Source of the DNA: Allobosea sp. Leaf344
Lineage (GTDB): Bacteria > Pseudomonadota > Alphaproteobacteria > Rhizobiales > Beijerinckiaceae
Length of the DNA: 64,000 nt
Assembly (NCBI RefSeq): GCF_001426225.1
Contig: NZ_LMRT01000014.1
Coordinates: 606,318-670,317, forward strand
Direction of reading: 5' to 3'
Shown here: in pieces, positions 3,463-18,720 of the stretch
How positions within the stretch are numbered: position 1 is the stretch's first letter
Layout of the letters: every line of letters begins with the position of its first letter
Made by a program: the position numbers and the translations under genes
The notes under the pieces: generated by a model
Databases searched by the model: none
What the model was told of the DNA's origin: nothing
What the model saw: the letters and a program-made list of their open reading frames with translations, nothing else

Positions 3463-3894
3463 TCAGCCGCTCCGCCCCGCGCTCTGCCGGCCCTTCGGCG
3501 GCGTCTCGGTGCCGGCGAGATCGGCCAGGATCGGGCAATCGGGCCTGCCGTCGCCATGGCAGGTCTGGGCGAGATGGCGCAGCGTCCCGGCCATGGCCTG
3601 CAGCTCCGCGATCTTGGCCTCGAGCTCCGCGACATGGTTGAGCGCGAAGCGTTTGACGTCGGCGCTGGCCCGGCTCTTGTCGCGCCAGAGCGCCAGGAGC
3701 TCGCGTGTCTCGTCGATGGAGAAGCCGAGATTGCGGGCGCGCTTGATGAAGCGCAGCGTGTGCACCTCCTCCGGCGCATAGATCCTGTAGCCGGATTCGC
3801 TGCGCAAAGGCGCGCCGATCAGCCCGATGCTCTCGTAGTAGCGGATCATCTTGGCGCTGACGCCGGATGAGTCCGCGGCCTGTCCGATATTCAT
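3463..3894 (-). CDS. cueR: CueR-type copper(I)-responsive MerR regulator
   Basis: MerR-family transcription activator of 143 residues that senses cytoplasmic Cu(I) and untwists long-spacer promoters. The N-terminal winged helix (MNIGQAADSSGVSAKMIRYY) is followed by a dimerisation helix and a metal-binding loop with Cys112 and Cys120 separated by seven residues, plus Ser77. These are the positions that define monovalent-metal selectivity in E. coli CueR. The start codon lies three bases after the stop codon of copA, so it is the second gene of a copA-cueR operon and probably controls its own synthesis through the copA promoter. The short His/Arg-poor tail after residue 125 is variable in the family. 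Confidence 0.95.
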   Translation of the reverse strand: MNIGQAADSSGVSAKMIRYYESIGLIGAPLRSESGYRIYAPEEVHTLRFIKRARNLGFSIDETRELLALWRDKSRASADVKRFALNHVAELEAKIAELQAMAGTLRHLAQTCHGDGRPDCPILADLAGTETPPKGRQSAGRSG

Positions 3895-3897
3895 CGC

Positions 3898-6423
<2,526 letters not shown>

Positions 6424-6446
6424 GGCTCTCCGAGCTGATGCCGACA

Positions 6447-6477
6447 CATATGGTCCTTCCCATCATGGGAAGGTCAA
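6447..6477 (-). promoter_or_regulatory. CueR-dependent copA promoter
   Basis: Read on the - strand there is a -35 element TTGACC (6477-6472), a 19-bp spacer and a -10 element CATATG (6452-6447). The spacer contains the inverted repeat CCTTCCC-N5-GGGAAGG (6455-6473). A 19-bp spacer with this dyad is the established signature of promoters activated by MerR-family CueR, and the half-sites match known copper-promoter sequences closely. It lies directly in front of copA-cueR. Confidence 0.93.
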
Positions 6478-8808: not shown

Positions 8809-8838
8809 TGATCCGATTCAGGAGCCCTGCCGTAGAAC
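8809..8838 (+). promoter_or_regulatory. candidate RpoE/ECF11-type promoter before the chrR-like gene
   Basis: TGATCC at 8809-8814 is followed after exactly 18 bases by TAGAAC at 8833-8838. The -35 hexamer is the one used by the RpoE-ChrR (ECF11) singlet-oxygen sigma factor group in Rhodobacter sphaeroides, and the spacer fits. The -10 element is only a partial match. It sits 51 bases upstream of the proposed TTG start of the chrR-like gene. This is inference from motif resemblance; no ECF sigma gene is adjacent. Confidence 0.45.
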
Positions 8839-8888: not shown

Positions 8889-9542
8889 TTGATCCTGAAC
8901 CAGGCTGATTCTCCCCAGGCGAAGCCGCTGGACGCCCTGCTCGCGAGCTACGCGGCCGGCGGGCTGAACGCGCCGCTGCATGCGCTCGTAGGCTCCCATC
9001 TCGCGCTGTCCGGGCAGAACCGGGGTTTCGTCGCGGCGCTGGAGGAGCTGGCGAGCCAGTCCATCACCGAGGCCGCGCCGCGTCCGCTGGTGACGCGGGA
9101 CGCGATGCTCGCCCGGATCTTCGGGGCCGAGCCTGTGGTCCGGTCCGTCCTGCCGGAGGATCCGGTGTTTCCGCGGCCGCTGCAGCAGCTCGTCGGACGG
9201 GCGTCGCGGGACGTGCCCTGGCGCTTCAAGCTGCCGGGCATCAAGGAGTACAAGATCGCGGAGACGGATGCCGGCGAGGCCGTGCTGTATTGGGTCAAGG
9301 CGGGGCGCCGCCTGCCCTCGCATACGCATGAAGGCGACGAGGTCACCCTGCTGCTCAAGGGCGGCTTCACCGATCCGCTGGGCCATTACCGCCGCGGCGA
9401 CATCGCCATCGCCGATGCCGAGGTCGATCACACGCCGGTCGCCGACAGGGACGAGGATTGCCTTTGCTTCGCCGTCACCGACGCACCGCTGCAGCTGACC
9501 GGCCCGGTGATGCGGCTGCTGCGCAAAGTCTTCCATCACTGA
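8889..9542 (+). CDS. ChrR-like cupin protein with degenerate anti-sigma zinc site
   Basis: Homologue of ChrR, the anti-sigma factor that releases RpoE on singlet oxygen stress; 217 residues from a TTG codon preceded by GAGGA nine bases upstream. The C-terminal cupin keeps all four expected metal ligands (His145, His147, Glu151, His181) and the conserved CxC in DCLCFAVTDAP. The N-terminal anti-sigma domain keeps the LLASYAAG helix and His37, but the two zinc cysteines of the HxxxCxxC motif are replaced by Ser41 and Asn44, and the first N-terminal histidine is absent. No sigma factor gene is adjacent, although chrR normally follows rpoE. It starts a + strand run into the photolyase gene, 36 bases downstream. 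The role as an anti-sigma factor is therefore doubtful; a redox or metal sensor is an alternative. Confidence 0.85.
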   Translation: MILNQADSPQAKPLDALLASYAAGGLNAPLHALVGSHLALSGQNRGFVAALEELASQSITEAAPRPLVTRDAMLARIFGAEPVVRSVLPEDPVFPRPLQQLVGRASRDVPWRFKLPGIKEYKIAETDAGEAVLYWVKAGRRLPSHTHEGDEVTLLLKGGFTDPLGHYRRGDIAIADAEVDHTPVADRDEDCLCFAVTDAPLQLTGPVMRLLRKVFHH

Positions 9543-9578: not shown

Positions 9579-11144
9579 GTGAAGACGCTCGTCCTCGTCC
9601 TCGGCGACCAGCTCAGCCGCGACCTCGCCTCGCTCGACGGGTTCGATCCGGCGCGCGACGTCGTGCTGATGGTCGAGGTCGCCGAGGAGACGACCTATGT
9701 CCGGCACCACCGGCAGAAGATCGCCTTCATCCTCTCCGCCATGCGTCATTTCGCCGAGGCGCTGCGGCTGGAAGGGCTGCAGGTGGATTATGTGCGCCTC
9801 GACGATCCCGGGAACAGCGGCAGCTTCACCGGCGAGCTGAAGCGCGCCGTGCTGCGCCACGCGCCCGACCGGGTGGTGGTGACGGAGCCCGGTGAATGGC
9901 GGGTCAGGCGGATGATGGATGATTGGCCGCAGCAGCTCGGGCTGCCGGTCGTCATCCGCGAGGATGACCGCTTCCTGTGCTCGCGCAGCGATTTCCGCGC
10001 CTGGGCCGATGGCCGCAAGAGCTATCGCATGGAGTTCTTCTACCGCGAGATGCGCCGGCGCACCGGCCTTCTCATGGAGGGCGACGATCCCGCCGGCAGG
10101 CGCTGGAACTTCGACGCCGAGAATCGCAAGCGACTTCCGCCCGGGACGCGCCCGCCCGAGCGCCTGCGCTTCGAGCCGGATGCGGTGACGGACGAGGTCA
10201 TCGCGCTGGTCGCGGCGCGCTTCCAGGATCATTTCGGCGATCTCGACGGCTTCAACTGGGCGGTCACGCGGGAGGATGCGCTGGCGGCGCTGGCCCTGTT
10301 CGTCGAGCGGGCGCTGCCGCGCTTCGGCGATTATCAGGACGCCATGGCGCAGGACGAGCCCTTCCTCTTCCATGCGCTGATATCGCCCTATCTCAATGCC
10401 GGGCTGCTCCTGCCGCGCGAGGTCTGCCTCGCCGCCAAGCGCGCCTGGCGGGCCGGGACCGCGCCGCTCAACGCGGTCGAGGGCTTCATCCGCCAGATCC
10501 TGGGCTGGCGCGAATATGTGCGCGGCATCTATTGGCTGGAGATGCCGGCCTATGCCGAGACCAACCGTCTCGGTGCCGATCGCCCGCTGCCCTGGTTCTA
10601 CTGGTCGGGCGAGACGGCGATGAACTGCCTCGCCTGTGCGATCGACGATACAAGGCGCCACGCCTATGCGCATCACATCCAGCGGCTGATGGTGACCGGC
10701 AATTTCGCGCTGCTGGCGGGGGTGAGGCCGGCCGAGATCGAGGAATGGTACCTCGCCGTCTATGCCGACGCCTATGAATGGGTCGAGTTGCCCAATGTCC
10801 ATGGCATGGTGATGTTCGCCGATGGCGGGCTTTTGGCGTCCAAGCCCTATGCCGCCTCGGGCGCCTATATCGACCGCATGTCGAATTACTGCGAAGCCTG
10901 CGTCTATGATCCCGCGATCAAGACGGGCGAGGGGGCCTGCCCGTTCAACCTGCTCTACTGGCATTTCCTCAGCGAGAACCGGGCCGCGCTCCAGAATAAT
11001 CCCCGCATGGCGATGCCCTATCGCACGCTGGACAGGATGAACGCCGCGCGCCGCGAGACGATCCTGCGCGAGGCCGGCGCCTTTCTCGCGGCGCTGGATT
11101 CGGGGGAGCCGGTCCAGCGGGTCCAGCCCGATCTGTTCGGATGA
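9579..11144 (+). CDS. phrB: FeS-type cryptochrome/(6-4) photolyase (PhrB/CryB family)
   Basis: Light-dependent DNA repair flavoprotein of the bacterial FeS-BCP group, 521 residues. The N-terminus MKTLVLVLGDQLS is the family signature. The four cysteines that hold the [4Fe-4S] cluster fall at residues 350, 438, 441 and 454 (in NCLAC, YCEAC and GACPF), the same numbering as in Agrobacterium PhrB. Related proteins carry FAD and a lumazine antenna; PhrB repairs (6-4) photoproducts. The GTG start at 9579 has GGGAGG eight bases upstream. It follows the chrR-like gene and precedes the SDR gene, probably in one transcript, and a second photolyase of another class lies at 16812-18257. Confidence 0.95.
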   Translation: MKTLVLVLGDQLSRDLASLDGFDPARDVVLMVEVAEETTYVRHHRQKIAFILSAMRHFAEALRLEGLQVDYVRLDDPGNSGSFTGELKRAVLRHAPDRVVVTEPGEWRVRRMMDDWPQQLGLPVVIREDDRFLCSRSDFRAWADGRKSYRMEFFYREMRRRTGLLMEGDDPAGRRWNFDAENRKRLPPGTRPPERLRFEPDAVTDEVIALVAARFQDHFGDLDGFNWAVTREDALAALALFVERALPRFGDYQDAMAQDEPFLFHALISPYLNAGLLLPREVCLAAKRAWRAGTAPLNAVEGFIRQILGWREYVRGIYWLEMPAYAETNRLGADRPLPWFYWSGETAMNCLACAIDDTRRHAYAHHIQRLMVTGNFALLAGVRPAEIEEWYLAVYADAYEWVELPNVHGMVMFADGGLLASKPYAASGAYIDRMSNYCEACVYDPAIKTGEGACPFNLLYWHFLSENRAALQNNPRMAMPYRTLDRMNAARRETILREAGAFLAALDSGEPVQRVQPDLFG

Positions 11145-11212
11145 TGGCCTGACGCTTGCCTCGCCGCGCCGGCCCCGCCGGCGCCCGTTTCGAAACCAGG
11201 AGGATGACCCGC

Positions 11213-12007
11213 ATGGCCCTGCCGAGCATGACGCCGAAGGATGGCGTCGCCTGGATCACCGGCGCGAGCTCCGGCATCGGGGAAGCCGTCGCGCTCGAAC
11301 TCGCCCGTCGCGGCTGGACCGTGGCGATCACGGCGCGCCGCCTGGAGCAGCTCGAGGATCTGGCGCGCCGGGCGGAGGGCCTGCCCGGCCGGCTGGTCGC
11401 CCATGCCGGCGACGTCACCGATTCCGCCTCGATGGAGCATGTGGTCGACACGATCGAGCATGTGCACGGGCCGATCGCGCTGGCCTTCTTCAATGCCGGG
11501 ATCGCACCCTATGTCCGGGCCGGCGCGCTCGATATCGCGGCCTTCGAACAGGCCTTCGCAGTCAATACATTGGGCGTCGCCAGGGGGCTGGCCGCCGTGC
11601 TGGAGCGGATGAAGGCGCGGGGCCGCGGGCAGATCGCGGTGAACGCCTCGACCGCGGGCTATGGCGGCCTGCCCAAGGCTGCGGCCTATGGCGCCTCGAA
11701 AGCCGCCGCGATCCATCTCTGCGAGGCGTTGAAGTTCGATTGCGACAGGCTCGGCATCAAGCTGCAGCTGGTCAATCCGGGCTTCATCGACACGCCGCTG
11801 ACCCGCAAGAACGATTTCCCGATGCCCTTCCTGATGACGATGGAGGAGGCGGCGCGCCGCACGGTCGACGGTTTCGCAGGCGGCGGCTTCGAGATCGTGT
11901 TTCCGCGGCGCCTCGCCTGGATCATCAAGACGGTCAATCTCCTGCCCTATCCCCTGTATTTCTGGCTGGTCGCCAAGGCCACCGGCTGGGACAAGCGCAC
12001 GGATTAG
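11213..12007 (+). CDS. short-chain dehydrogenase/reductase in the photo-oxidative stress cluster
   Basis: SDR-family NAD(P)-dependent oxidoreductase of 264 residues. The cofactor motif TGASSGIGEA lies near residue 15, NAG near 90, and the catalytic serine and YGASK (YxxxK) near 150-165. The C-terminus ends in a hydrophobic stretch (LLPYPLYFWLVAKATG), which suggests contact with the membrane or a lipid substrate. The ATG at 11213 has AGGAGG nine bases upstream, which favours it over the earlier in-frame start at 11204. The stop codon overlaps that of the convergent transporter gene by a few bases. SDR genes of this type belong to the RpoE regulon cluster of Rhodobacter sphaeroides; the substrate is unknown. 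Confidence 0.9.
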   Translation: MALPSMTPKDGVAWITGASSGIGEAVALELARRGWTVAITARRLEQLEDLARRAEGLPGRLVAHAGDVTDSASMEHVVDTIEHVHGPIALAFFNAGIAPYVRAGALDIAAFEQAFAVNTLGVARGLAAVLERMKARGRGQIAVNASTAGYGGLPKAAAYGASKAAAIHLCEALKFDCDRLGIKLQLVNPGFIDTPLTRKNDFPMPFLMTMEEAARRTVDGFAGGGFEIVFPRRLAWIIKTVNLLPYPLYFWLVAKATGWDKRTD

Positions 12008-13332
12008 GCCGGCGCCTGCGTTCCGGCCGCGATCCGCGTCTCGACCGCGCCGAGCGCCGCCCGGTCGAACGGAAAATTCCAGACCAAGGCGATCGCCACG
12101 AGCTTCAGCAGCACCGGCAGCCCGGCATAGAGCAGGCCCAGCATGAGAAGGCCGCTCTCCGTCCTGACGCCGGCCGCCGGGTCGAAGCCGGCCGCGCTGA
12201 GCAGGGGAAAGGCGAGGCCGACCGCGCCGGCGAAGGCGAGCTTGGTCGCCAGCGCCCAGAGCCCGAGATAGAGCCCGGCGCGCTCATTGCCGGTGGCGGC
12301 GGTGTCGATGTCGATCACATCGGCCTGGATCGAGGCGGGCAGCACCACATCGGCGCCGAGCGCCAGCCCGGTCAGGATGCAGATCAGCCCGAAGGCGATG
12401 ACGTCGCCTTCGCCCAGCAGCACGGCGAAGCCGAAGCAGAGCACCGCCAGCAGCATGCCCCAGCTCCAGGCGCGATGCTTCGAGCTGCGTCCGGCGAGCC
12501 AGAGCCAGAACGGCACGCCGAGCACCCCGCACAGGAAATACAGCACCAGAAGCGGCCCGGCCGCATCGCGCTGGCCCAGCCGCTCCGCCACGAAGAACAG
12601 GAAGAGCGTTGCCGGCAGGCCATTGGCGAAGCTGTTGATGAAGAAGGCGGCCAGCAGCCGCCGGAACGGGCGATTGCCGGTCAGCGCGGCCAGCCCCCTG
12701 CGAAAATCCAGCGGCACCCGGCTGCGCTCGCGCGGCTCCGGCGTGGACGCGACGGCGATCCAGGCGAAGAGCGGCAGGCCGAGCCCGATCAGCAGCGCCA
12801 GCGCCAGCAGCCCGTCGCGGCTGCCGCCGCCCTGGAGCTGCACCACCGCCGGGATCAGCAGGGCGAGCAGGGTGCCGATCACCGTGCCGCTCTCGCGGAA
12901 GGCCGCGACGCGGGTGCGGCCGGCATAGGAGCGCGAGAGCTCGGCGCCCCAGGCGCCATAGGGCACCTGCGCCGCGGTCCAGGCCAGGGACAGAAGGCTC
13001 GCCCAGAGCAGCAGATAGCCGGCGCCCGCCTGTTGCGGCGGGGCGAGCACGAACCAGGCGGAGATGGCGACGAGCGGCGCCGACAGCGCCATCCACAGCC
13101 TGCGCCGGCCGAAGCCGGGGCGGAAGCGATCGGCGGCCCAGCCGGCGACGGGGTCGCTCACCGCATCGAGCAGCCGCACGATCAGCAGGACATAGCCGAC
13201 GGTCGCGATCGGCAGGCCGATCTCGCGCGCGTAGAATTCCGGCACCATCACGTAGAAGGGCAGGCTCAGCGCCGCCAGCGGGATCGCCGGCAGCGCATAG
13301 GCGAGCAGGACGGGGCGTGACGGTTCGCTCAC
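12004..13332 (-). CDS. GPH-type MFS transporter
   Basis: Inner-membrane transporter of 442 residues with about twelve predicted helices, of the MFS_2/GPH (melibiose carrier-like) group. The family segment RLLDAVSDPVAGWAADR lies in the first third. The GTG start at 13332 overlaps the stop codon of the upstream cfa-like gene in a GTGA arrangement, which shows translational coupling and rules out the longer in-frame start. It is the last gene of the photolyase operon. A GPH-annotated transporter also sits next to the cyclopropane-synthase-like gene in the Rhodobacter RpoE regulon, so transport of a lipid or lipid precursor is a possible inference; sugar transport is not shown. Confidence 0.88.
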   Translation of the reverse strand: MSEPSRPVLLAYALPAIPLAALSLPFYVMVPEFYAREIGLPIATVGYVLLIVRLLDAVSDPVAGWAADRFRPGFGRRRLWMALSAPLVAISAWFVLAPPQQAGAGYLLLWASLLSLAWTAAQVPYGAWGAELSRSYAGRTRVAAFRESGTVIGTLLALLIPAVVQLQGGGSRDGLLALALLIGLGLPLFAWIAVASTPEPRERSRVPLDFRRGLAALTGNRPFRRLLAAFFINSFANGLPATLFLFFVAERLGQRDAAGPLLVLYFLCGVLGVPFWLWLAGRSSKHRAWSWGMLLAVLCFGFAVLLGEGDVIAFGLICILTGLALGADVVLPASIQADVIDIDTAATGNERAGLYLGLWALATKLAFAGAVGLAFPLLSAAGFDPAAGVRTESGLLMLGLLYAGLPVLLKLVAIALVWNFPFDRAALGAVETRIAAGTQAPA

Positions 13333-14603
13333 GCGGTCTTCGCGAACACCATCTGCCGCACGTCGATATTGCCGGAGCGGAATCCGGCCTCGCAATAGGC
13401 GAGGTAATATTCCCACATCCGCCGGAAGCGCTCGTCGAAGCCCAGCGGCTTGAGCTGCGGCCAGGCCGCCCTGAAGCGGTCTCGCCAGCTCGCCAGCGTC
13501 GTCGCGTAATCCAGGCCGAAGATCAGCTCATGGGCGAGCGGCACGCCGAACCGGTCGCCCAGCTTGCGCATGATCGTCGGCGTCGGCAGCATCCCGCCGG
13601 GGAAGATATAGGCGCGGATGAAATCGAGCTCGCGGCGATAGACCTTGAAGCTCTCGTCGCGGATCGTGATCACCTGGAGACCGGCCGTCCCGCCCGGGCG
13701 CAGCCGGTCGCGCAGCTGCTCGAAATAGACCGGCCAGAAGGCTTCGCCCACTGCCTCGAACATCTCGATCGAGGCGATCCTGTCATAGGTGCCGGTCTCG
13801 TCGCGATAATCCTGCAGCTTGATCGTCACGCGATCCTGCAGCCCGGCATCCCGGATGCGCTGCTGCGCGAAGTCGAACTGTTCCTGGCTGATGGTGAGCC
13901 CGGTGACGCGGCAGCCGATCTCGCGGGCGGCGTATTCGGCGAAGCCGCCCCAGCCGCAGCCGATCTCGAGAACATGGTCCTCGGGACCGATGCCGGTCTG
14001 CTCGGCGAGGGCACGGTATTTGCGCGTCTGCGCCGCGGCGAGATCGCTGTCTCCCGGCGCGAAGATGCCGGAGGAATAGGTCATGGTGCGGTCGAGCCAG
14101 GCGCCGTAGAAACGGTTGCCGAGGTCGTAATGCGCGTGGATGTTCTTGCGGGCCTGCGCCTTGGTGTTGCGGCGGCGGAAATGCTGCAGCATCTGCCAGA
14201 GCCGCACCAGCGGCTTGCCGGGCAGCAGCGTCTGGATCACCGGGTAGTTCGCGGCGAACAGCTCGAGGAAGCGCGCCAGATCCGGCGTGTCCCATTCCCG
14301 GCGCAGATAGGCCTCCGCGAAACCGAGATCGCCGCCGCCGGAGAGGCGCGAGGCGAAGCCGAAATCATGGATGATCAGCTGCGCCTCCGGGCCGGGCTCG
14401 CTGCCCCTGAACAGCAGGCTGCGGCCATCCGGCAGCGTCACGGTCAAGGCACCGAGCCTGATCCGCGCCGCGAGCTTCAGCGCCTGGCGCGTGGCGAAGG
14501 ACAGGCCCTTCGTCACCTCCGCGACGCTGGCGGCGTCGACGAGCAGGGGCTCGGATGGGGTCTGGTCCGGCATGGTGGTCATGGCATTGGACGGCGCATT
14601 CAT
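13329..14603 (-). CDS. cfa: cyclopropane-fatty-acyl-phospholipid synthase family methyltransferase
   Basis: SAM-dependent methyltransferase of 424 residues that acts on double bonds of phospholipid acyl chains at the inner membrane. The N-terminal helical domain is followed by the methyltransferase core with the glycine motif VLEIGCGWGGFA, the HYDLGN segment and YSSGIF. The ATG at 14603 overlaps the DUF1365 stop codon as ATGA, so translation is coupled; the 44-codon extension upstream is rejected. The order FAD-oxidoreductase, DUF1365, Cfa is widely conserved. In Rhodobacter, relatives in the RpoE regulon make furan-containing fatty acids, so the product here could be a cyclopropane or a methylated furan lipid. 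Confidence 0.93.
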   Translation of the reverse strand: MNAPSNAMTTMPDQTPSEPLLVDAASVAEVTKGLSFATRQALKLAARIRLGALTVTLPDGRSLLFRGSEPGPEAQLIIHDFGFASRLSGGGDLGFAEAYLRREWDTPDLARFLELFAANYPVIQTLLPGKPLVRLWQMLQHFRRRNTKAQARKNIHAHYDLGNRFYGAWLDRTMTYSSGIFAPGDSDLAAAQTRKYRALAEQTGIGPEDHVLEIGCGWGGFAEYAAREIGCRVTGLTISQEQFDFAQQRIRDAGLQDRVTIKLQDYRDETGTYDRIASIEMFEAVGEAFWPVYFEQLRDRLRPGGTAGLQVITIRDESFKVYRRELDFIRAYIFPGGMLPTPTIMRKLGDRFGVPLAHELIFGLDYATTLASWRDRFRAAWPQLKPLGFDERFRRMWEYYLAYCEAGFRSGNIDVRQMVFAKTA

Positions 14604-15460
14604 GGGATCCGCACCCCGCTCAGCGGCCGGGCTTCGGCCCAGTCGGCCGCGCTTTGATAACTCGCGGCGACCGGTGGCGGTGCCGGGCGGGCCTGCAGGC
14701 CGATCCCTTTCAGCCAGAGCTTCAGCGCCTCCCAATGGATGCCGGCCACGACCTTCAGGGTCATCAGCGGCATGGCGAGGCAGGCACGGACCAGGCTGGC
14801 CGATGTCAGCGCCCGGCGCGTGCCGGCGAAGCTCGCGGCCAGGATCGGCCCATCGCGATCGGTTTCCAGAATGCGCACCTTCACCGTCTCCCCCGGCGGC
14901 AGCACCCTGAAATGATAGCGCATCGGCATGTCGAGGAAAGGGGAAACGTAGAAGAGCTTGTCGCGCACCTGGCGCAGGCCGGCTTCAGTCAGTTCGCCCG
15001 GCGCGACCGGGGCGACATAGCTGTGCATCTCGCCGAAGGTGTTGCGGACCTCGTAGATCAGCGCCTGCAGCCGCGCCTCGCGATCATAGCAGAAATAGAT
15101 CGAGATCGGATTGAAGACGAAGCCGAGGATCCGGGGATAGCAGAGCAGCAGGATGCGGCCGCCGGAGAGATCGAGTCCGGCCGGGGCGAGCAGGCGCTCG
15201 ACATGGTGGCGCAGCGGCGTCCGCCCATCGCCATGGTCGCTTTCGCGGAAGCTCGCCAGGCTCCAGCCCGGGCCGATCCGGAACAGAGGGCTCGCACGCC
15301 CGGCCTGGGCCAGGCGGTCGAGATCGATGAGCAGGTTGAAGACGCGGTACTGGAACCGGTGCGGCTTCGGCTTCATCCGGGCATGCATCACCTTGCCCGG
15401 CACCAGCGAGACGGCGGCATCGGGCGGTGGGAAGTCTGACGGCGCAGGGATGGCACTCAT
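14600..15460 (-). CDS. DUF1365 family protein
   Basis: Protein of 286 residues of the DUF1365 family, whose biochemical role is not established. Recognisable parts are the N-terminal HARMKPKPHRFQYRVF segment, the central FNPISIYFCYD motif, and the YVSPFLDMPMRYHF segment. Both ends overlap its neighbours by four bases (ATGA), between the flavin oxidoreductase gene and the cfa-like gene. The family is almost always found in this trio, so a role in fatty-acyl modification on phospholipids is inferred from context. The start at 15460 is chosen because of the overlap. Confidence 0.92.
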   Translation of the reverse strand: MSAIPAPSDFPPPDAAVSLVPGKVMHARMKPKPHRFQYRVFNLLIDLDRLAQAGRASPLFRIGPGWSLASFRESDHGDGRTPLRHHVERLLAPAGLDLSGGRILLLCYPRILGFVFNPISIYFCYDREARLQALIYEVRNTFGEMHSYVAPVAPGELTEAGLRQVRDKLFYVSPFLDMPMRYHFRVLPPGETVKVRILETDRDGPILAASFAGTRRALTSASLVRACLAMPLMTLKVVAGIHWEALKLWLKGIGLQARPAPPPVAASYQSAADWAEARPLSGVRIP

Positions 15461-16758
15461 TCCGCGGCCTCGACGAGGGCCGGCATGGCCGCGCGCCACG
15501 GCACCTGGGCGCCCAGCGCCTCGGCCGCGGTCAGCCCTGCCTTCAGCCCATCCTCATGGAAACCATAGCCCGTCCATGCCCCGGTGAACCAGATGCGATT
15601 GCGGCCCTGGATGCCGGGCAGCCGCGCCTGGGCGGCGAGAGCCGCCCGGTCATATTGCGGGTGGCTGTAATTGAAGCGGCCGAAGGTCAGCTCGGGCCGT
15701 GGCGGGGTCGGCGGGTTGAGCGTGACGAAGACGGGCTTGCGCTTGTCGATGCCCTGCAGCGCGTTCATCCAATAGGTCAGGGTCAGCTCGGCCTCGGGAT
15801 CGTCGCTCGCCAGCACGTTCCAGGCCGACCAGGCCGCCTTGCGCCGGGGCATCAGCGCCGGGTCGCGGTGCAGGAAGACGTCGTTGGGGCGGTAGCGGAT
15901 ATCGCCGAGCACCTGCCGCTCCAGCGGCGAGGCATCGTCCAGCAAAGCGAGCGCCTGGTCGGAATGCGTGGCCATGATCACCTGGTCGAAGCGCTCGGCC
16001 CGGCCGGTCGCGTCGCGCACCGTCACGCCGGAGACGTCGCGGCTGATCCCGGTGACCGCGACGCCGGCCCTGATCCGCTCGCGGAAGGGCGCCGTCAGCC
16101 GTTCGACATAGCGGCGGCTGCCGCCGCTCACCGTGCGCCAGCTCGGCCGGTCCCAATGCAGCAGCCGGTGATTGTCGAAGAAGGCGATGAAGCTGGCGGC
16201 GGGAAAGCCGAGAAGCCGGGCAGGGGGCATCGACCAGATCGCCGCCCCCATCGGCGCGAGATAGGAATCGCGGAACACCGGGGAATAGCGGCCGGCCTCG
16301 AGATACTCGCCGATCGTCATGCCGCCGAGCCGGTTCGCCCGATAATCCGCGACCGCGCTCTTGTTGAAGCGGAACATCTCGCGGATCATCCTGTAATGGG
16401 CCAGCGAGACGATGTTGCGGCGGCGTGCGAACAGCCCGTCGAGCATCGCCTCGCCGCGGCCCGCCCATTCGCGCCTGCCGCCCTGGGCAGAGACTGCGAA
16501 GCCCATGTCGGACAGCTGCGTCTGCACGCCGAGATGCGCGAACAGCGCGGTGAGATTGGGGTAGTTCAGCTCGTTATAGACGATGAAGCCGGTATCGACG
16601 GGGATTTTCGTCCCATCATAGTCGATATCGACCGTCGCCGAATGCCCGCCCAGCCGCTGCTCCTTCTCGTAGACGACGATCTCGTGCGCGGATCCCGTGG
16701 CGAGGGCCCAGGCGGCCGAGTTTCCGGCGATGCCGGACCCGATGATAGCAATGCGCAT
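15457..16758 (-). CDS. FAD-dependent amine-oxidase-like oxidoreductase
   Basis: Flavoprotein of 433 residues with an N-terminal dinucleotide-binding motif (IAIIGSGIAGNSAAW) and the GGHSAT and VDTGFIVYNELNYPNL segments typical of the NAD/FAD-binding protein found next to Cfa synthases. Relatives are annotated as cyclopropane fatty acid biosynthesis oxidoreductases and may desaturate or oxidise acyl chains. The ATG at 16758 starts exactly at the Rossmann fold; the frame is open for 134 codons upstream but overlaps the photolyase gene. It lies 53 bases after the photolyase stop codon and is translationally coupled to DUF1365. Confidence 0.92.
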   Translation of the reverse strand: MRIAIIGSGIAGNSAAWALATGSAHEIVVYEKEQRLGGHSATVDIDYDGTKIPVDTGFIVYNELNYPNLTALFAHLGVQTQLSDMGFAVSAQGGRREWAGRGEAMLDGLFARRRNIVSLAHYRMIREMFRFNKSAVADYRANRLGGMTIGEYLEAGRYSPVFRDSYLAPMGAAIWSMPPARLLGFPAASFIAFFDNHRLLHWDRPSWRTVSGGSRRYVERLTAPFRERIRAGVAVTGISRDVSGVTVRDATGRAERFDQVIMATHSDQALALLDDASPLERQVLGDIRYRPNDVFLHRDPALMPRRKAAWSAWNVLASDDPEAELTLTYWMNALQGIDKRKPVFVTLNPPTPPRPELTFGRFNYSHPQYDRAALAAQARLPGIQGRNRIWFTGAWTGYGFHEDGLKAGLTAAEALGAQVPWRAAMPALVEAAE

Positions 16759-16811: not shown

Positions 16812-18257
16812 TCAAACTGGTTTCAACGAGGCGAGCGCCGCCAGAGCGCGCTCGCGCCCGGCATCGAGCGCCACCACCGGCTTCGGATAATCCTGCGCCC
16901 CGGCATCCCGGCGCTCCGCCGCCGAAGCGGTCCAGGGCTCGTGGATGACGCCGTCGTCGAGCCCGGCGATCTCCGGCACCCAGCGCCGCACATATCCCCC
17001 CTGCGGATCGAATTTCCGGCCCTGGGTGACGGGGTTGAAGATCCGGTAATAGGGCGAGGCATCGGCACCGGAGCCCGCGACCCATTGCCAGCTCGCGGCG
17101 TTGTTGGCCGGATCGGCATCGACCAGCGTGTCCCAGAACCAGCGCTCGCCCTCGCGCCAATCGATCAGCAGATGCTTGATCAGGAAGGAGGCGACGATCA
17201 TCCGGACGCGGTTATGCATCCAGCCGGTGGTCCAGAGCTCGCGCATCCCGGCATCGACGATCGGGTAGCCCGTCCGGCCGCGCTGCCAGGCCGTCAGGGC
17301 CGGCGGGTCGCTCTGCCAGGGAAAGGCGTCGAAGCGCCGGTTGTAGTTCTGCCGCGCCAGCTCCGGATTGTAGTAGAGCAAATGGTAGGAGAATTCGCGC
17401 CAGCCGATCTCCGACAGGAATTTCTCGGCATCGGAGGCGCCGGCCGAGATCGCGCCGGAATCGCGGGCCGCCTGCGTGGCGTGCCAGATCTGCCGCGGCC
17501 CGATCTCGCCGAAGCGCAGATGCGGCGAGAGGCGCGAGGTCGTCACCGAATCGGGCCGGTTGCGCCCCTCGCCATAGCCGTCGAGCGGCCCGTCCAGAAA
17601 ATCGTGCAGCCGGGTCTTCGCGCCCTCCTCGCCGGGCGTCCATTCCTCGCGCAGACCCCCCGCCCAATCGGGCCTGGTCGGTTCCAGGGCGAGCTCCTCG
17701 AGCGCGAGCGTCTGCCGGCGCAGATCCGGCGGCAAGGCCGGATTCGCCAGCCGCGCCGGCGCCGGGAGGGGGGCGTCGGGCTCACCCCGGGCACGCGCCG
17801 CCCGCCAATAGGGGGTGAAGACCTTCATCGGCTCGCCGATCTTGCTCTTCACCTGCCAGGGCTCGTTGAGCAGAGCCGTATTGCCGGTCTTCACCGTGCA
17901 GCCGGCGGCCGTCAGCTCCGCTTTCAGCGCCGTGTCGAGCGCGATGCTTTCGGCCTCGTAGCGCCGGTTCCAGGTCACCGTGCCGATTCCGCCGGCGCTG
18001 ACCAGCGCCGGAATCAGGGCGGCGGGATCGCCCTTCAGCAGATGCAACGCACCGCCGCGCCGCGCGATCGCCCGCGACAGCGCGCGCAGCGACTGCGCCA
18101 GCCACCAGCGTGACGCCGCCCCGAGCGGCCGCCGCTCCGGCCCGTCATCCAGGATATAGACGAGAATGGCCGGGCCGGCCTCGAGCGCGGCGGTGAGCGC
18201 GGGATTATCGGCCAGCCGCAGATCGTCGCGGAACCAGTGCAGGGCAGGAGCTGTCAT
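16812..18257 (-). CDS. phr: class I deoxyribodipyrimidine photolyase
   Basis: Blue-light DNA repair enzyme of 481 residues that splits cyclobutane pyrimidine dimers using FAD. The N-terminal antenna domain begins LHWFRDDLRLADNPAL, and the C-terminal FAD domain has the conserved GRTGYPIVDAGMREL, WMHNRVRMIVASFL and NNAASWQWVAGSG segments. It is the first gene of a - strand operon that continues with the flavin oxidoreductase, DUF1365, cfa-like and transporter genes. The promoter must lie between 18258 and about 18340, after the tRNA-Asn terminator; I did not find a convincing -35/-10 pair or a TGATCC motif there. It differs in class from the FeS photolyase at 9579-11144. Confidence 0.95.
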   Translation of the reverse strand: MTAPALHWFRDDLRLADNPALTAALEAGPAILVYILDDGPERRPLGAASRWWLAQSLRALSRAIARRGGALHLLKGDPAALIPALVSAGGIGTVTWNRRYEAESIALDTALKAELTAAGCTVKTGNTALLNEPWQVKSKIGEPMKVFTPYWRAARARGEPDAPLPAPARLANPALPPDLRRQTLALEELALEPTRPDWAGGLREEWTPGEEGAKTRLHDFLDGPLDGYGEGRNRPDSVTTSRLSPHLRFGEIGPRQIWHATQAARDSGAISAGASDAEKFLSEIGWREFSYHLLYYNPELARQNYNRRFDAFPWQSDPPALTAWQRGRTGYPIVDAGMRELWTTGWMHNRVRMIVASFLIKHLLIDWREGERWFWDTLVDADPANNAASWQWVAGSGADASPYYRIFNPVTQGRKFDPQGGYVRRWVPEIAGLDDGVIHEPWTASAAERRDAGAQDYPKPVVALDAGRERALAALASLKPV

Positions 18258-18385: not shown

Positions 18386-18460
18386 TGGCTCCCGGAGCAG
18401 GATTCGAACCTGCGACCAATCGATTAACAGTCGATTGCTCTACCGCTGAGCTATCCGGGA
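18386..18460 (-). tRNA. tRNA-Asn (GTT)
   Basis: A 75-base cloverleaf on the - strand with acceptor stem TCCCGGA/TCCGGGA, D-loop AGCTCAGCGGTAGAGC, anticodon loop CTGTTAA giving anticodon GTT, and T-arm GGTTCGAATCC. The CCA end is encoded. A good promoter lies just upstream at 18471-18499 and a terminator follows. Confidence 0.98.
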
Positions 18461-18646: not shown

Positions 18647-18720
18647 GGCCTCGTGGCGGAGTGGTTACGCAGAGGACTGCAAATCCTTGCACCCCGGTTC
18701 GATTCCGGGCGAGGCCTCCA
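18647..18720 (+). tRNA. tRNA-Cys (GCA)
   Basis: A 74-base cloverleaf with acceptor stem GGCCTCG/CGAGGCC, anticodon loop CTGCAAA giving anticodon GCA, T-arm GGTTCGATTCC and encoded CCA. A short hairpin AGCAC-TTC-GTGCT follows immediately (18721-18733) with a T-run 25 bases later, a poor terminator. Confidence 0.98.

Follow-up and report, generated by a model that had tools for sequence, protein, structure and literature searches.

The window, by which we mean the whole stretch of 64,000 nucleotides analysed here, encodes a ChrR-type protein in which the zinc site of the anti-sigma domain is lost and the metal site of the cupin domain is intact. Judged from sequence comparison and a predicted structure, this protein is quite probably a zinc-independent anti-sigma factor that acts in trans and is itself a target of the sigma factor that it restrains. 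The binding of ChrR to the sigma, inhibition without zinc, the signal and the use of the promoter are the parts of this reading that we infer.

The ChrR-type protein and its anti-sigma domain

The chrR ORF (Table 1) begins with a TTG codon and encodes a protein of 217 amino acid residues. No in-frame ATG, GTG or TTG is found further upstream of this TTG, and the start codon is a predicted one. The protein belongs to the ChrR family of anti-sigma factors by its match to TIGR02451, which extends over residues 13–215 and scores 141.8 bits against a cut-off of 124.5. A Cupin_7 match scores 43.9 against a cut-off of 27, and R. sphaeroides ChrR (2z2s_B) matches the protein at 2.2e-34. The ChrR equivalog model NF051881 gives 112 bits, below its curated cut-off of 300, so the protein falls outside that model.

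Table 1. Features of the chrR region, with coordinates in the window.
Feature	Coordinates	Strand	Remarks
Putative ECF11/RpoE-type promoter, TGATCC-N16-CGTA, exact	8809..8834	+	ends 54 bp before the TTG start; sequence match
ChrR-type protein	8889..9542	+	helices 11-22, 28-40, 45-61, 70-79; cupin about 96-200
Photolyase-related protein (DPRP, PF04244)	9579..11144	+	next gene downstream of chrR
Short-chain dehydrogenase	11156..12007	+	start uncertain
MFS transporter (MFS_2/GPH type), photo-oxidative stress gene cluster	12004..13416	-	
Cyclopropane/methyl fatty-acid type methyltransferase (CMAS, PF02353)	13329..14735	-	start uncertain
DUF1365 protein, photo-oxidative stress gene cluster	14600..15499	-	
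FAD-dependent amine-oxidase-type protein, same stress cluster	15457..16758	-	start MRIAIIGSG chosen by eye
DNA photolyase	16812..18257	-	tRNA-Asn in upstream region

In helices 2–3 of the protein, the sequence H37-L-A-L-S41-G-Q-N44 replaces Hx3Cx2C, and the ZAS motif is therefore absent. When the two proteins are paired residue by residue, K12 of the window protein stands at H6 of R. sphaeroides ChrR, the first zinc histidine of that protein as numbered in the preliminary description, and H37, S41 and N44 stand at H31, C35 and C38. Thus, both cysteines and the N-terminal histidine are gone, and the middle histidine, His37, is retained. The numbering of zinc ligands H31, C35 and C38 is that of PMC6852236. 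The cupin site is complete, with H145, H147, E151 and H181 plus C191xC193. Two of these residues, E151 and H181, correspond to Glu147 and His177 of R. sphaeroides, cupin ligands that are required for the singlet-oxygen response (PMC6852236). The residues read from the sequence agree with the preliminary description on both counts, that is, the retention of the four cupin ligands and of the CxC at 191–193, and the loss of HxxxCxxC and of the N-terminal histidine, where S41, N44 and K12 are found.

We refer to ChrR proteins of the window's type, whose sigma gene is unlinked, as the split type, and to those with an adjacent sigma gene as the linked type. A total of 123 distinct split-type sequences was gathered; their sources were the family, named genomes and a sample of the whole order. 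Rows identical over residues 31–120 were dropped, which retained 67 of the 80 named and 16 of the 20 order rows, and the fragment G025 was excluded; many of the 80 named loci come from the same genomes as the unnamed loci, so that the counts overlap. None of the 123 relatives has Cys at position 41 or 44, and His37 is retained in every one of them. Asn or Ser occupies position 44 in 116 of them; at position 41, 121 have one of Ser, Lys, Arg, Asn and Thr, and 56 of these have Lys or Arg. A read error at the cysteine codons, for which the preliminary description had allowed, is ruled out, since the loss is common to these 123 relatives.

All four cupin ligands are present in 122 of the 123 relatives, the exception being G037. 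In this genome (L119 6005-6679), three of the four ligands are gone (the residues are A, G, E, Q) and the sigma is retained elsewhere; its ChrR is perhaps a decaying or differently signalled copy. A further ChrR-type match, G213:C4:91305-91913, contains one in-frame TGA; the same genome also carries another ChrR match and, elsewhere, an ECF11-type sigma. The scan of named genomes gave 139 relatives, of which 80 were kept. Those in the Beijerinckiaceae include a Bosea MAG (71% identity), Salinarimonas, Alsobacter and Methylobacterium MAGs; other named relatives are Roseibium, Pannonibacter and Stappia as well as Methylopila, Prosthecomicrobium and Chthonobacter.

The linked-type ChrR rows (n = 18) are mixed in their zinc site: both cysteines are present in 11, one is lost in 1, and neither is present in 6, namely G114, G017, G015, G052, G110 and G041. 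A quick tree of 68 rows was made from the 18 linked rows, 24 of 40, 9 of 67 and 16 of 16 split rows, and R. sphaeroides, with a midpoint root, one support value and the zinc-site columns included. In this tree, the window's type forms one side of a branch with support 98, and at least 3 changes are needed for the zinc state and 1 for the gene arrangement. If the Cys pair of R. sphaeroides is taken as ancestral, it follows from the tree that the pair was lost more than once, also beside an adjacent sigma. The zinc-site loss is probably old, as far as such sequence comparisons indicate.

An alignment-based model of the window protein, made from 36 aligned sequences, has a mean pLDDT of 88.8 and a pTM of 0.81, and the four anti-sigma helices of Table 1 are predicted at pLDDT blocks of 92–98. 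A single-sequence structure prediction was discarded (mean pLDDT 33). The solved fold closest to the model is that of R. sphaeroides ChrR in its complex with SigE (2q1z_D; Z 20.4, rmsd 2.5, 176 residues, 38% identity). This match covers the model from 13 to 198, and the predicted protein would thus contain the four-helix domain of class I/ECF11; most other rows of the fold comparison match the cupin part only.

The sequences of the split type also point to selection on this domain. The dN/dS ratio of the anti-sigma part is 0.07–0.37 in 13 of 14 split pairs, the remaining pair being saturated, and that of the cupin part is 0.02–0.16 in the 14 pairs; several dS values exceed 1, and these dN/dS figures are rough. 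By identity, the cupin part is the better conserved of the two in 14 of 14 split pairs, and by dN/dS it is so in all 13 computable pairs. Residues H37, L74 and I77 are invariant in both alignments. In this anti-sigma class, helix 1 and helix 4 are the sigma-contacting parts (PMC7406223). From the model and the sequences together, the anti-sigma domain of the split type still looks functional.

The unlinked sigma gene and the putative promoter

The search for an ECF11 sigma gene that the preliminary description had proposed found one, and it is unlinked. This single ECF11-type sigma gene of the genome, G000:C7:19902-20465, lies on another contig than chrR, so the sigma and anti-sigma genes are not adjacent, and the best PDB match of its product is R. 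sphaeroides RpoE (6.1e-48). As had been stated earlier, no ECF sigma gene is adjacent to chrR: all 15 genomic TIGR02937 matches (E up to 0.01) are outside the window. The protein had accordingly been called an orphan, a term that holds for its immediate surroundings and fails for the genome, given the ECF11-type sigma on the other contig. The preliminary description had also considered that a canonical rpoE-chrR pair might exist elsewhere. None was found; the genome search at E up to 10 gave one ChrR match in all and no second ChrR, and no ChrR or other anti-sigma was recognised among the 7 ORFs neighbouring the C7 sigma gene. A quinone-oxidoreductase-type gene (L046 8475-9449) begins 5 bases after the stop codon of the C7 sigma gene.

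ChrR and the ECF11-type sigma are retained together across genomes. Among the 119 genomes of the family, ChrR is found in 59 (of the split type in 40), the ECF11-type sigma in 59 and both in 58; the exceptions are G107 (split type, 73% complete), which has ChrR and no sigma, and G031, which has the sigma and no ChrR. Among 297 genomes of the order, all 58 with a split-type ChrR (at least 139 bits) have an ECF11-type sigma, and it is adjacent, that is, less than 200 bp away, in none. The 139-bit cut was set by eye at a gap between 139.8 and 122.4 bits. In nine of the 58 genomes the two genes share a contig and lie 1.0 to 5.3 Mb apart; in 49 they are on different contigs, which by themselves give no gene distance. 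Because the 58 genomes span 14 family codes, the type is common to at least 14 family groups of the order, and the window protein is not the lone oddity for which it had been taken.

All 58 rows above the cut were used; below it stand 39 rows (37 genomes) among the matches listed, of which 27 are adjacent, 9 (7 genomes) are split and 3 have no typed sigma row, the genome table listing a sigma for these 3 as well. As the 9 split rows indicate, unlinked ChrR genes also occur among those with a lower score against the window protein. In G193, a lower-scoring and unlinked ChrR, the Cys pair is absent and the promoter motif is present with a spacing of 17. The sigma match of G322 spans residues 3–124 only. 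Viewed from the sigma genes, no ChrR-like match was found near the ECF11 sigma at any of 58 sigma loci (51 genomes, 7 of them twice), and viewed from chrR, no ECF11 sigma was found at the 80 loci of named relatives within flanks of at most 6 kb, many of them shorter.

In a sigma tree, the split-type sigmas lie on one side of a branch with a support of 85 only. ChrR and sigma distances correlate at 0.66–0.75 (21–24 genomes). After control with a neighbouring gene, which removes shared ancestry only in part, the partial correlations are 0.57, 0.43 and 0.50, with 0 of 1000 permutations as high in each case. Within the window's genus, G000 and G084 have the split pair, G052 and G110 have a linked zinc-free pair, and G011 has neither; the occurrence of split, linked and absent states within one genus suggests whole-system exchange between species.

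The preliminary description of chrR had missed a sequence in front of the gene that matches the ECF11 promoter exactly (Table 1). The sequence TGATCC(N15)GCGTA, which has the same spacing as the window site, precedes R. sphaeroides Pos19, as found experimentally (PMC5036791), and the ChIP-seq consensus in P. syringae is TGATCC-N16-CGTA (PMC5507510). In 34 of the 40 split-type genomes of the family, and in 72 of 80 named relatives, chrR is preceded by the strict motif (spacing 15–17) at a distance of at most 300 bp; the spacing is 16 in 33 of the 34. In the order sample, 19 of 20 chrR genes are preceded by the motif when TGATC[CT] is allowed. Over 473 kb of split-type family loci there are 41 strict matches in all on both strands, against 0 in the backward control. 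In linked-type rows, the motif lies about 640–710 bp upstream of chrR, before the sigma gene, in 13 of 19 (these 19 rows include the fragment G025, placed here provisionally).

The unlinked sigma genes carry no such sequence: an ECF11 promoter was found before 0 of 30 in the family and 0 of 20 in the order sample, that is, 0 of 50. Of the two regulatory genes, chrR only would thus carry an ECF11 promoter, as judged from the motif. Since the motif is present before chrR and absent before 50 sigma genes, the promoter has stayed with the anti-sigma gene. A looser pattern matches the window once, at the chrR site, and when the window was shuffled 100 times, 38 of the shuffled sequences held at least 1 match; a match at an arbitrary place is therefore weak alone, and the weight rests on position and conservation. 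A scan of the window with up to 2 mismatches found 56 sites against 47 expected.

In the genome of 4.35 Mb, the exact motif with spacing 16 occurs only twice, before chrR and before an RpoH-type gene. The second site (L298 / G000:C8:460384-460409) ends 46 bp before C8:460456 (NF005693, 457 bits), the second of two RpoH-type genes in the genome. The rpoHII gene of R. sphaeroides is directly targeted by RpoE and depends on it entirely (PMC6852236). Among 30 split-type genomes, 2 have no rpoHII-type locus, and 2 of the other 28 loci, with too short an upstream stretch, were left uncounted; the strict motif precedes the rpoHII-type gene in 22 of the 26 that remain, and a motif with one mismatch does so in 2 more. 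At three loci examined, the motif was not found before the other RpoH-type gene. The putative rpoHII-type promoter in most of the split-type genomes examined points to a kept RpoE-RpoHII cascade.

The mean number of exact sites per genome, uncorrected for genome size, is 5.5 for the split type (15 genomes), 6.6 for the linked type (11 genomes) and 4.9 where ECF11 is lacking (15 genomes). A large regulon is unsupported by such counting, as the split-type counts are about equal to those without ECF11; since the genome-wide counts are not clearly raised, the direct regulon is probably small. The excess of the looser pattern over the backward control was set aside, the backward control being an unfair background, and a motif at C15:84694 was dropped because it lies inside a long ORF that by eye resembles a methylase.

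Proposed mechanism, alternatives and known systems

We suggest that the cytoplasmic ChrR-type protein would hold the C7 sigma through its four-helix anti-sigma domain, in which polar side chains around His37, the one zinc ligand retained, would take over the structural work of the zinc clamp. The cupin domain, with its intact metal site, may be the sensor of singlet oxygen or lipid peroxides. A change in the cupin, or breakdown of the protein, would free the sigma, which would then transcribe chrR, the photolyase-related and dehydrogenase genes behind it, and the rpoHII-type gene. In linked relatives, the promoter would stand before sigma and anti-sigma together; in the window, it would stand before the anti-sigma gene only. 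It follows from this position that the sigma would no longer raise its own level through an ECF11 promoter, and the visible loop would be one of negative feedback.

The loss of the zinc site bears on this proposal in two ways. In R. sphaeroides, zinc in the anti-sigma domain is required for inhibition (PMC6852236), so that a simple reading predicts loss of function for the window ChrR. On the other hand, the 6 of 18 linked rows that lack both cysteines suggest that a zinc-free ChrR can still serve its sigma, and either zinc or protein–protein contacts can stabilise the same helical bundle (PMC6852236). The simple reading leads to an alternative in which sigma binding has been lost, the cupin has been repurposed as a sensor or enzyme for the lipid and photolyase genes, and the sigma is either unbound or bound by something else. 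Besides the zinc requirement of R. sphaeroides ChrR (PMC6852236), it is favoured by the absence of both zinc cysteines in 123 of 123 relatives and by the lower conservation of the anti-sigma part, seen by identity in 14 of 14 pairs and as a higher dN/dS in 13. We nevertheless hold it to be quite improbable: the dN/dS of the anti-sigma part still lies at 0.07–0.37, H37, L74 and I77 do not vary, the sigma-touching helices 1 and 4 (contacts from PMC7406223) are confidently predicted, the two proteins are retained together in 58 of 58 genomes, and the genes next to the sigma gene include no other recognisable anti-sigma. The preliminary description had offered three options, an anti-sigma factor working without zinc, a free sensor acting on a distant sigma, and a repurposed cupin regulator. 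A combination of the first two is best supported, in view of the one unlinked ECF11 sigma and the co-retention; the third is disfavoured by the confidently predicted helices, by purifying selection and, again, by the co-retention.

It is also conceivable that the domain still binds metal, through His37 and other residues or residues of its partner, in which case the zinc dependence would be altered and not lost. The replacements look constrained, with H37 in 123 of 123, Asn or Ser at position 44 in 116 and a limited set of residues at position 41 in 121. This option is nonetheless unlikely, as no Cys is left, position 41 is occupied in 56 of 123 by Lys or Arg, which are poor ligands, and the window protein has Lys at the position of the first His. 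Equally doubtful is control of the sigma mainly by its own expression or by a quinone-oxidoreductase-type operon partner, with ChrR as a minor brake. None of 50 loci has an ECF11 promoter before the sigma start, from which it follows that sigma expression must come from another promoter, and a quinone-oxidoreductase-type gene stands at 22 of 58 sigma loci. Against this proposal, such a neighbour is present at less than half of the loci, and ChrR is found in all 51 genomes, though these were chosen that way.

The zinc-independent anti-sigma factor acting in trans that we favour is close to the RpoE(SigE)-ChrR system of R. sphaeroides (ECF11 / AS11) in its two-domain protein, predicted fold and cupin ligands, as well as in its sigma group by best match, promoter sequence, rpoHII target and nearby lipid and photolyase genes. 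It differs from that system in that the zinc Cys pair and first His are missing, the sigma is unlinked, and the promoter stands before chrR instead of the sigma gene. Class I anti-sigma factors without a zinc motif are known in E. coli RseA and M. tuberculosis RskA, which resemble the window ChrR in this respect and belong to other ECF groups; both are membrane-bound and have no cupin sensor. The six linked ChrR proteins without the Cys pair likewise have an intact cupin, and differ from the window protein in having the sigma directly upstream and, in 5 of the 6 (not in G017), the promoter before the sigma gene. The P. syringae pair PSPTO_1043/1042 is similar in combining an RpoE-type sigma with ChrR and in its consensus TGATCC-N16-CGTA (PMC5507510); in contrast, its sigma and anti-sigma genes are predicted to be co-transcribed, with the promoter before the sigma gene.

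Within the class, a domain without zinc is nothing new, since the zinc motif is absent in about 44% of its members and in about 28% of the soluble ones (PMC7406223). What is new here is the combination of a zinc-free ChrR type with an unlinked partner and a moved promoter; no report of a zinc-free unlinked ChrR arrangement was found in the open-access literature searched. The large survey of the class looked no further than 10 coding sequences from each ECF gene (PMC7406223), a limit that unlinked partners would escape; for certain other ECF groups, it mentions that anti-sigmas may be orphans or that synteny may be broken. The two genes described here would be a probable sigma/anti-sigma pair whose members, though unlinked, have been kept together in evolution. 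According to a review, it is unknown what exactly the zinc of the anti-sigma domain does in the singlet-oxygen response (PMC6852236); a large natural set of ChrR proteins without the zinc site and with an intact cupin makes the roles of zinc and cupin separable without making mutants.

We give about even chances to a wider, joint reading, in which a one-step ancestral rewiring took place that is now seen across many families of this alphaproteobacterial order: the sigma gene would have left the operon, the promoter would have stayed with chrR, and the zinc clamp would have become a polar network around an invariant His. The result would be purely negative feedback, with zinc having no sensing role and the cupin alone acting as the sensor. 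If this is true, those linked pairs that have also lost the site would imply that zinc is dispensable more generally.

Genes around chrR

The photolyase-related gene next to chrR is probably part of the chrR transcript, to judge from the gene layout. Its position between chrR and the dehydrogenase gene is found in the window only, among 59 family loci; a homologue of the short-chain dehydrogenase lies downstream of chrR at 30 of 40 split-type family loci. The CMAS gene of the window is a candidate for the lipid gene of the core regulon described in PMC6852236, to which it may correspond exactly.

No ECF11 site was recognised before the photolyase/lipid gene block of the window. Exact ECF11 sites do occur before the photolyase gene in the relatives G028, G010 and G098. 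In the window, the place immediately before the photolyase gene, which in some relatives holds the putative ECF11 promoter, is taken by a tRNA-Asn gene (18386-18460, minus strand), and a tRNA-Cys gene follows at 18647-18720 on the plus strand. On the other side of chrR, a MerR-type regulator (3463-3894) stands beside a P-type copper-transporting ATPase (3898-6447), both recognised by eye from their translations; the ATPase has, also by eye, two N-terminal metal-binding repeats.
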